Assembly: GCA_002101205.1 (NCBI GenBank)
Contig: LWTM01000072.1
Span: 1 to 64,000, forward strand
Reading direction: 5' to 3'
DNA from: Cycloclasticus sp. symbiont of Poecilosclerida sp. N
GTDB lineage: Bacteria; Pseudomonadota; Gammaproteobacteria; Methylococcales; Cycloclasticaceae
DNA: 64,000 nt
Shown: one piece after another, positions 16,253-53,797 of the stretch
Layout of the letters: the number at the start of each line of letters is the position of its first letter
Numbering within the stretch: the first letter of the stretch is position 1
Program-made: the position numbers and the translations under genes
Notes under the pieces: model-generated
What the model was told of the DNA's origin: nothing
The model's database searches: none
Seen by the model: the letters and a program-made list of their open reading frames with translations, nothing else

Positions 16253-16745
16253 AGCGGGCACATAATGTCTGATTTGACTGGATGTTTTCTCGCATGGTAG
16301 AGAGGTAGGAACGCCCCAAAAAGGCTCCATTGTTGCCCACATGAGACGGCTCATAATCATCCTTACACACCAGTATAAGTTTCATTGAAACCGACGCAAA
16401 GACTTCCGTTTAATTCGGCTTTAATACGAGGGTTAAAAATAAGGCTGTTTGGGATACAAAAAATTTAGCCTGGAAATTGACCTTTAACCGCACCCCACAC
16501 AACCGGACCCAAACCATCTGATAAGTCCGCAAGACTTTACAAAGTTCGGGCTGTGTTGAGAATGATTTTTACATCTCGTATTTTAATAAAACTCATTGCC
16601 GATTTAGTGAGTTACGCTGTCAGCACTAGCACTGTCAGCACTAGCCCGCCAGTGCCCGTACCGCCGGCGGTGTAAGTGCACGCGTAGCGGGTGCTGCCTG
16701 CGCCGGCGGTGTAAGTACACGCGCTGAGGTCTTATTCCCATACCT
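16253..16745. other. 493-base gap with short and dispersed repeats
   Basis: No protein-coding signal on either strand. It contains two exact copies of CTGTCAGCACTAGC at 16617-16630 and 16632-16645 (period 15), then the GC-rich dispersed repeat at 16661-16734. The left 350 bases hold nothing I recognise. Confidence 0.7.
16661..16734 (-). repeat. 74-bp dispersed GC-rich repeat, copy 1
   Basis: Its reverse complement matches 53320-53393 at 70 of 74 positions, from TAAGACCTCAG through two blocks of ACTTACACCGCCGGCG spaced 39 bases apart. It begins just downstream of the MMPL stop codon, in the gene's own orientation. The core CGCCGGCG is palindromic. Confidence 0.93.
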
Positions 16746-19148
16746 TTAGGTCGTTGGTTTTTCAGCCTTTGACACCAGCAACCACCTTGCCAATGCGGGT
16801 AATATGAGAATAGCCCCCAGCATATTAACTAAGAACATAAAAGTGAGCAGAATACCCATATCGGATTGGAACTGTAAGGGTGCAAAAATCCAAGTACAAA
16901 CACCCGCACCAAGTGTCATGGCGGTGAAAATAACGGGTTTGCCGGTCAAGCGCATTGCTTTGTAAAAAGCGGTTTCCAAGGTGTCGCCTATATCTAAAAA
17001 CTCACTCATCCTGCTATAGATATAAATGGCATAATCGACTCCGACGCCGACACCAAGAGCGACTATTGGTAAAGTATTAACCTTCAAGCCAATTCCCATT
17101 ATCGCCATTAATGCATAACAAAGTAACGAAACTAATGCTAACGGTAAAATTACGCATAAGGTGCCACCAATAGATCTAAACGTTAAGAACGTTAATATAA
17201 AGACTGCTGTGTATACCCAGATCATTAAGGGCACTTGCGCCGCTTTTACGGTATCGTTCGTTGCCGCAATAATACCAACGTTACCGCTGGCTAAACGAAT
17301 ATGAAAGCGGTCATCAGGCAGGTTGGGTTGGTAAGCATTAATGCCTGCGATAATGTCATTTATTGTTGTTGCCTTGTGGTCTAGCGTGTAAATATTGATA
17401 GGCATATTAGCGCAAGGCGCGTCCATAAATTCATCACCACCTGCCCCCATATGGTAAAGGCTCGCGCCCATTGAGCTCGCGTTGCGAGAAATAGAATACC
17501 AACGCTGGCTACCTTCGTTATTGGCAGCAAGAATCACTTTTTGCTTATCAACCAAGGAAACGACTGATTGCACGCCGGGTAAATTACGGATATGCCAAGA
17601 AAAACGGTCCATCTCATCCATAATCTCATAATCAACACAGGCGTTATCAACCGATTCAATCATCACCGTCAGCTTATCTACACCGACTGAAAATCGCTCA
17701 GTAATAACTCGACTATCCACGTTATAACGCGCATCTGCTCTTAATTCAGAAACACCGGCTTGAGAGTCACCAATATCCAGGTCATATTGTTTGCTCAAAC
17801 CCCACGCGGTTAAACTCACAACAATAAAAATAACGAACAACGATGGCTGTGTACGTGTAAGTTTTGATAATGCGCGCCATAAAAAGTCACGGCTATTGTC
17901 AGACTTCTGATGTTTTGCTCGATACTTTTCTGAATCCTTTAATGTGACATACGACAAAAGAATTGGCAGCAGAACAAGGTTTGTAATGATAATAACCGCG
18001 ACACCTAAACTGGCCGCGATGGCCATTTCCTGGATAATACCAATCGGGATAAGCAATACCGTTAAGAAACCGACCACGTCGCTCACTAAAGCGACACTAC
18101 CTGGCACAATTAAACGTCGGAACGTGCGTTTAGATGCTTCAATACCTGAGATACCCTGTGCATTAGCTAGCGCGGGCACAATAGGGTGTCCATGCTTATC
18201 TTCATTACCACCGTAAAGAATTTCACCCATCCAGCCACTGATCATCTGCACACCATGACTCACGCCAATAGCAAACACCAAAAAGGGGACTAAAATACTC
18301 ATAGGGTCTAACCCAAAGCCGAGTAATGGCAACAAACCCACCTGCCAAACAACGGCGACAGTTGCACTCACTAAAGGCAATAATGTTAAGGCTAAAGAGT
18401 GCGAGTAAAGCCAAAGTAAGACTGCCGTAATCAAGAAGGTGACGATAAAAAACTTAACAACATCACGCGCACCATCTGCAATATCACCGGTAGATTTTGC
18501 GAAACCAATAATATTAACGCTAATATCATCCGTCTCTACCGTTTTCCTAATCTTCTCTTCAAGATCAGCCGCTACCTTTTGATAATTTAAAGGCCGACGT
18601 GTTTTAGGGTCGATATCAATCAATTCAGCACGAATCAATGCACCTGAGAAATCATTTGCTACTAAATTACCTAAACGCCCTGATTTAATAATATTATTAC
18701 GAATAATAGGAAACCACTTTTCGTTGGCTCTAAATTCGGCAGGTACAACATTACCTCCCTGAAACCCATCCTCAACCACTTCGATGAAACGCACATTAGG
18801 TGTCAAAATTGAAGTTACTGAACTTCTAGCAACACCGTGTAGGAAGAACATTTCTTCATTCGCTTTTTTTAGAGCGGTAAAAAAATCAGCGTTAAACATG
18901 TCCCCTTTATTCTGCGTAACGGCAACAATTAATTGGTTACCACCTCCAAACTCGACACTGTAATGCCGCAAGGTTTCAATATATTCATGTTCGGTTGGTA
19001 ATAATTTTTCAAAGCCTGCATCCATACGTAGTTTTAAGCCGTTATAGACCATAAATGCTGTTAACAGTAAAAGCACTATTAAGATCGTCTCACGATTAGA
19101 GAATAAAACGCTCTCTAACCACGATGACTTTTTATTCTGTTTACTCAT
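16746..19148 (-). CDS. MMPL/RND-type exporter of the DUF1302/DUF1329 cluster
   Basis: An 800-residue inner-membrane RND-superfamily protein. It has one N-terminal helix (about 18-38), a large periplasmic loop, five clustered helices near 225-420, a second periplasmic loop, and a second helix cluster near 640-790. That is the twofold MMPL layout. It contains GLDPMSILVPFLVFAIGVSHG and LPIVALGVGVGVDYAIYIYSR, both typical of MMPL/sterol-sensing-like segments. Proteins of this group co-occur with YCF48-like, DUF1329 and DUF1302 genes in lipid- and hydrocarbon-using proteobacteria, as they do here. The likely role is moving a hydrophobic substrate across the envelope; substrate and direction are unknown. 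The dispersed 74-bp repeat follows its stop. Confidence 0.85.
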   Translation of the reverse strand: MSKQNKKSSWLESVLFSNRETILIVLLLLTAFMVYNGLKLRMDAGFEKLLPTEHEYIETLRHYSVEFGGGNQLIVAVTQNKGDMFNADFFTALKKANEEMFFLHGVARSSVTSILTPNVRFIEVVEDGFQGGNVVPAEFRANEKWFPIIRNNIIKSGRLGNLVANDFSGALIRAELIDIDPKTRRPLNYQKVAADLEEKIRKTVETDDISVNIIGFAKSTGDIADGARDVVKFFIVTFLITAVLLWLYSHSLALTLLPLVSATVAVVWQVGLLPLLGFGLDPMSILVPFLVFAIGVSHGVQMISGWMGEILYGGNEDKHGHPIVPALANAQGISGIEASKRTFRRLIVPGSVALVSDVVGFLTVLLIPIGIIQEMAIAASLGVAVIIITNLVLLPILLSYVTLKDSEKYRAKHQKSDNSRDFLWRALSKLTRTQPSLFVIFIVVSLTAWGLSKQYDLDIGDSQAGVSELRADARYNVDSRVITERFSVGVDKLTVMIESVDNACVDYEIMDEMDRFSWHIRNLPGVQSVVSLVDKQKVILAANNEGSQRWYSISRNASSMGASLYHMGAGGDEFMDAPCANMPINIYTLDHKATTINDIIAGINAYQPNLPDDRFHIRLASGNVGIIAATNDTVKAAQVPLMIWVYTAVFILTFLTFRSIGGTLCVILPLALVSLLCYALMAIMGIGLKVNTLPIVALGVGVGVDYAIYIYSRMSEFLDIGDTLETAFYKAMRLTGKPVIFTAMTLGAGVCTWIFAPLQFQSDMGILLTFMFLVNMLGAILILPALARWLLVSKAEKPTT

Positions 19149-53307: not shown

Positions 53308-53319
53308 CTAACGGCCTCT

Positions 53320-53399
53320 TAAGACCTCAGCACGTGTACTTACACCGCCGGCGCAGGCAGCACCCGCTACGCTTGTACTTACACCGCCGGCGCAGGCAG
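53320..53399 (+). repeat. 74-bp dispersed GC-rich repeat, copy 2
   Basis: TAAGACCTCAGCACGTGTAC then two exact 25-base copies of GTACTTACACCGCCGGCGCA(GGCAG) at 53336-53360 and 53375-53399 (period 39). It matches the reverse complement of 16661-16734 at 70 of 74 positions. It starts 13 bases after the acyl-CoA ligase stop, in the gene's orientation. Confidence 0.93.
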
Positions 53400-53401
53400 A
53401 C

Positions 53402-53605
53402 AAAGAGCGTCACGCTCGTATTGCAGTCACTCGTGCCGAAGGAGGGCCTCCTTTTACAACAGACAAGCGACACTATGGGCTGACACGAACTCGATTCATG
53501 GGGCTAGATAAAAATGCCACCGTCTATGGCCTCGCTGCTATGGCGTTAAACATTCGTAAAGGCGCAAATTTTCTGACGCGGTATGGTTTGCCTTGCCTGA
53601 ACTAA
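53402..53605 (+). pseudogene. IS5-family transposase remnant, C-terminal
   Basis: A 67-codon open stretch ends RHYGLTRTRFMGLDKNATVY, GLAAMALNIRKGANFLTRYG and LPCLN before TAA. This is the C-terminal tail of an IS5-family transposase. GTTGCATAAAA just downstream may be the element's right end and echoes the ends seen at 6977 and 8535. The front of the gene is missing and abuts the dispersed repeat. Confidence 0.75.
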
Positions 53606-53797
53606 GTTATATAGGATAGATTCGCTGTGTTGCATAAAAAACCCAAGAAACGATCAAAATCAGCTTAAATTAAGGACATAACCACATATTTATGCAAAAA
53701 ATATAGAACATAAAACAAAAACACATGTTTAACAATAAAATTGAGATGCTATGCTGAGGTCTGTCTTACATAAAGAAAATGCCTTGTATCTTTTAAA

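Follow-up and report, generated by a model that had tools for sequence, protein, structure and literature searches.

Arrays of a 15-nucleotide GC-rich unit in the terminal inverted repeats of decayed IS5-family insertion sequences, and in host genes, of a Cycloclasticus symbiont of Poecilosclerida

Two GC-rich repeats are found just past the stop codons of two unrelated genes in the window (the whole 64,000-nucleotide stretch of contig LWTM01000072.1 that was analyzed), and the question was what kind of element they represent. The similarity on which the earlier note had remarked was confirmed, with identity at 70 of 74 positions between 53320-53393 and the reverse-complemented 16661-16734. 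The two 39-nt units ascribed to each copy were also recovered, with ACTTACACCGCCGGCG present twice in each at a spacing of 39 nt (four matches in the window at ≤3 mismatches, versus 0.3 in window shuffles). Each repeat runs in the same sense as the neighboring gene, starting 11 nt past the stop of the MMPL gene (gene end at 16746) and 12 nt past that of the acyl-CoA ligase gene (53307). The note's reading holds insofar as the repeat is a multi-copy, dispersed and apparently undescribed GC-rich family.

Three features had been overlooked. The family is dispersed with variable length, a whole-genome BLAST search returning 28 places; transposase remnants continue from both copies; and copy 2 ends on the right in a matching terminus and is flanked by duplicated TCTT. 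Both copies are the left ends of degenerate IS5-family insertion sequences (Table 1), and the simplest explanation for their location just past stops is that two IS copies landed there.

Table 1. Coordinates in the window of the two IS5-family remnants and their parts
Feature	Coordinates	Strand	Remarks
Copy 2 in full (443 bp), an IS5-family element with an internal deletion	53321..53763	+	Inverted ends AAGACCTCAGCA / TGCTGAGGTCTG, flanking TCTT, transposase remnant inside
Target-site duplication TCTT, left	53317..53320	.	Sequence flanking copy 2
Target-site duplication TCTT, right	53764..53767	.	Sequence flanking copy 2
Copy 2, left terminal inverted repeat AAGACCTCAGCA	53321..53332	+	
Copy 2, GC-rich block: 15-nt units and 24-nt module	53333..53398	+	
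Copy 2, C-terminal remnant of IS5-type transposase, 68 codons and stop, abutting the block	53399..53605	+	
Copy 2, right terminal inverted repeat CAGACCTCAGCA, block-free, then TAGC	53752..53763	-	
Copy 1, left terminal inverted repeat AAGACCTCAGCG	16722..16733	-	
Copy 1, GC-rich block, 107 nt	16615..16721	-	
Copy 1, inner IS anchor TAACTCACTAAATCGG and decayed 5' end of transposase gene	16541..16614	-	Comparison with intact relative

The transposase remnant of copy 2 encodes DKERHARIAVTRAEGG...GLPCLN and has 24 matches in the genome of the Poecilosclerida symbiont, in which IS5-type transposase remnants are present; the decayed stretch beyond copy 1 corresponds to the 5' part of a transposase gene of this kind. 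The transposase was identified as IS5-family because of the fullest copy found in this genome (C67:57495-58953) and an intact 340-aa relative encoded on LWTL01000122.1, from the congeneric Cycloclasticus symbiont of Bathymodiolus heckerae. The latter protein scored 228.7 bits against NF033581 (cut-off 140) and matched the Pfam models DDE_Tnp_1 and DUF772. Its insertion sequence measures 1,205 bp, has the ends GAGACCTCAGCATAAC...GTTATGCTGAGGTCTC and contains no GC-rich sequence. At the ends of intact relatives, GAGACCTCAGC is joined directly to ATAAC, and related insertion sequences in other genomes are likewise block-free. The terminal inverted repeats and short target duplications that characterize the IS5 family were found in the carrier: the ends are GAGACCTCAGC, and TCTT, TTTAC and ATCCT are duplicated at three elements, a target duplication not being recognised in several others. 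The TTTAC element (C75:3410-4034) bears a 114-nt block; an 82-bp element (C73:29921-30002) consists of ends and array and nothing else. The assembly is a draft of 77 contigs, several of which end inside the carrier, and intact copies may be missing from it.

Several other sequences related to this family were noted. At C63:32145-32845, a 335-aa frame passes from the N-terminal part of an IS5 transposase through a GC-rich block into a HIT-domain protein; the element may have fused two genes here. Candidatus Endonucleobacter, which parasitizes the nuclei of deep-sea mussels, has a related IS5 transposase (JASXSU010000003.1; 82% identity across part), and transfer between mussel-associated bacteria is possible. 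The window also contains, at 350-494, 145 bp with IS5-like ends (GAGGCTTTAACG..TGTTGAGGTCTC) and no GC-rich block, resembling MITE-like sequences elsewhere in the genome (e.g. C77:181820, C68:2845 and C67:7108). Two 140-bp MITE-like sequences with IS5-type ends and 5-bp duplications (ATTAC, GTAAT), at C76:24499-24638 and C75:169829-169968, apparently belong to a single larger segment that has been duplicated.

The GC-rich block is located exactly at the joint between GAGACCTCAGYA and TAAC, inside the terminal repeat, at left and right IS ends alike, and it occupies one or both ends of a given IS copy. Its GC content is 65%, compared to 43% for the window. The block is a degenerate tandem array of CNNGYRCYGRCRGTR, 15 nt in length. 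Block lengths were compiled from the 33 ends at which both anchors could be located, after removal of two chance matches; they were 0, 15 (six ends), 28, 30 (five), 39, 45 (five), 53, 59, 64 (two), 75, 84 (two), 94, 107, 114 (two), 115, 181 and 192 nt. Multiples of 15 account for 17 of the 32 non-zero lengths (2.1 expected), and 22 of the 32 are of the form 15n or 15n+9; the associated p-values are nominal, as the IS ends share descent. Lengths of 28, 53, 59, 64, 94, 107, 115 and 181 nt fall outside this 15/24 rule. The shortest blocks are single 15-mers (e.g. CGTGTACTGACAGTA), and the 24-nt module is composed of CAAGCGTAG and a 15-mer variant (9+15). In long blocks, both orientations of the unit are represented. 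Ends of a single element can be unequal: the blocks of one C67 element are 28 and 192 nt long, and copy 2 has one block-bearing and one block-free end.

An exact 15-mer pattern matched 100 times in the 1.92-Mb genome, versus six times for a reversed control. Clustering placed 37 sites at IS5 ends and 26 elsewhere. On inspection, three of the 26 proved to be diverged IS5 ends, and two are probably native gene sequence; the hits in the genes for aconitase (C65:28990) and NagZ (C66:50870) seem to be native, judging from homologues, and were discarded. Most of the 100 matches fall at about 40 IS5 ends, and about 20 further sites remain. Tandem pairs of the unit occur at 43 places in this genome versus none in 17 congeners; among 293 further genomes of the order, two have a single such place each. 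They are essentially absent from these 310 genomes, as judged by motif-based searches that miss diverged inserts. A BLAST search of plasmids with a block gave no match. Nine IMG/VR contigs had a single match each, which was taken as chance, and no description of the 15-nt unit was found in the part of the literature that was covered. The tandem-repeat frame at the end of one contig (C55:6940-7427; repeats of ~84-96 nt in a 180-nt super-unit, open to the contig end) was set aside because its repeat is unrelated to the 15-mer; it perhaps encodes a repetitive surface protein.

Units outside the insertion sequence were found in host genes and in other transposons. In the single-copy DHFR gene, 54 nt are inserted in frame, between NF and the ANGVIIV region; this insert is absent from all 15 congeners with a recovered DHFR gene (14 by alignment and one more by split matches). 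Alignment to solved DHFRs placed it in a surface-loop region, which we take to be the CD loop. The insert-bearing protein scored 155.7 bits against the type 3 DHFR model (cut-off 168), a shortfall that we infer was caused by the insert. A cytosine methyltransferase similar to HindV-type enzymes has a 30-nt in-frame insert, i.e. exactly 10 residues or two 15-mers, between RDYLGN and IGLDYYY, and homologues from Morganella and an E. coli plasmid do not have it. Among three IS1595-type transposases, one has five units after MKQ, one has a single unit and one has none; the five-unit copy also has a 126-nt internal insert. The 24-mer is carried by TnpB-like genes (IS605/TnpB-type) and by two other repeat families. 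Inserts in TnpB at C75:122176 and C77:128735 are likely, their homologues being too distant to fix the boundaries, and a candidate insert was noted at C55:4747 in an adenine methyltransferase-like gene whose phage homologues begin past this point. Because frames and orientations differ among the non-IS sites, the unit is not a protein domain. At C71:26374, an IS5-end block gives way to a different repeat family inside the 24-mer that the two have in common, a junction that suggests recombination or template switching within units.

The combined data were considered to be explained best, and with reasonable confidence, by decayed IS5 ends that carry a 15-nt array, spread with the insertion sequence and dispersed a second time by copying, the units being passengers and not regulatory. 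A founder unit would have entered the joint between GAGACCTCAGYA and TAAC of an active IS copy; the array length would then have changed by slippage or unequal exchange between tandem units, and transposition would have carried the array along with its IS. The second dispersal, to other transposons and host genes, would have come about by copying, with template switching at replication forks in GC-rich, quasi-palindromic sequence as the likeliest route. In genes, survivors would be limited to in-frame insertions tolerated in loops, and the units would be selfish or neutral passengers rather than gene-regulatory signals. This account is supported by the block-free intact relative, the quantised lengths at the 33 ends, the restriction to one lineage, the in-frame genic inserts, the 0/1/5 units of the IS1595-type copies, the excess of unit matches over the reversed control, the C71:26374 junction, the unequal ends of copy 2, and the duplications at copy 2 and C75:3410-4034. 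The block lengths that break the 15/24 rule, and folding no stronger than that of shuffles, count against it.

The earlier note had favored a free-standing intergenic element of REP/BIME or integron-like type that may affect mRNA 3' ends. The repeat is indeed GC-rich, partly palindromic and multi-copy, and the two copies in the window lie just past stops in the sense of the gene. However, the block sits within an IS5-family terminal inverted repeat, a context that makes the integron-like reading unnecessary, and units also interrupt coding sequences, where they take several frames and either orientation, an outcome that the note itself had listed as refuting. A stable hairpin was rejected as the basis of the element, and a hairpin-driven model is left without energy support, because its folding has no clear advantage over that of shuffled sequence (z of +0.6 to -1.7). 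Three loci carrying the repeat had no Rfam match. An influence on mRNA 3' ends is thus unsupported, and an extragenic palindrome with that function is highly improbable. Only slightly better is the prospect that the block is a functional IS part, supplying extra transposase-binding sites that improve transposition, with the genic copies left by abortive events. Its position in the terminal repeat at both ends and the target duplication of a block-bearing element fit such a role, but lengths range from 0 to 192 nt and one element can have ends of unequal length, relatives transpose block-free, and the genic inserts lack terminal sequence; we regard it as very unlikely.

A more serious contender, albeit still an unlikely one, is an autonomous or helper-mobilised mini-element that resembles the Rickettsia palindromic elements, is moved by an unknown recombinase and merely favors IS ends as targets. 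It would account for the in-frame inserts in DHFR, the methyltransferase and transposases without an IS terminal repeat, and for the filling of the same joint at both IS ends. On the other hand, neither the DHFR site nor the methyltransferase site showed a recognisable target duplication, and the inserts begin and stop at differing points of the unit. The broader proposition that a lineage-specific 15-nt (5-codon) unit disperses itself by its own mechanism, nesting in IS ends and in-frame in essential genes, is put forward tentatively, as a possibility that we consider less probable than its converse.

Several known systems share some of these properties. BOX elements of Streptococcus pneumoniae have IS-like ends and a variable number of tandem modules flanked by distinct end modules, boxA and boxC (PMC3049150); they have in common with the present arrays short ends that resemble IS terminal repeats, a variable number of tandem modules, variable length and occasional overlap with reading frames, and the 82-bp element at C73:29921-30002 is closest to this layout in having ends and array alone. 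Here, however, the unit is 15 nt, no equivalent of boxA or boxC is defined, most arrays lie inside an IS with transposase remnants, an essential gene has received an in-frame insertion, the host is different, and the sequence is probably different as well. The palindromic elements of Rickettsia and Wolbachia are dispersed in-frame at tolerated positions in unrelated protein-coding genes (PMC3767692, PMC10969869), as are the DHFR and methyltransferase inserts. The Rickettsia elements are 100-150 bp long, whereas the present units grow in tandem (15n/24), have no significant fold, are mostly nested in IS ends and differ in sequence and lineage. The carrier is a member of the IS5 family by its transposase, inverted ends and short target duplications, but minisatellite arrays inside the terminal repeat were seen in none of the related IS ends examined. 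REP/BIME sequences are likewise short, GC-rich, multi-copy and partly palindromic; the present units are not mainly extragenic and have no stable tagged stem-loop, and thus differ from REPs as defined (PMC3733652). The family resembles BOX in architecture and the Rickettsia palindromic elements in behavior, but it probably belongs to neither.

The best-known cases of selfish sequences inserted in frame into genes come from Rickettsia and Wolbachia, and a comparable process appears here in a gammaproteobacterial lineage, one congener being a mussel symbiont. The units are much smaller and quantised, and block-free versions exist in close relatives; the insertion boundaries and their effects can therefore be read directly. 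The arrays would be an instance of a minisatellite that hitch-hikes in the ends of transposons and also alters proteins, a source of new loops in enzymes such as DHFR. If the unit does disperse itself, protein-compatible selfish micro-elements would gain a new class that lies outside the Rickettsiales.
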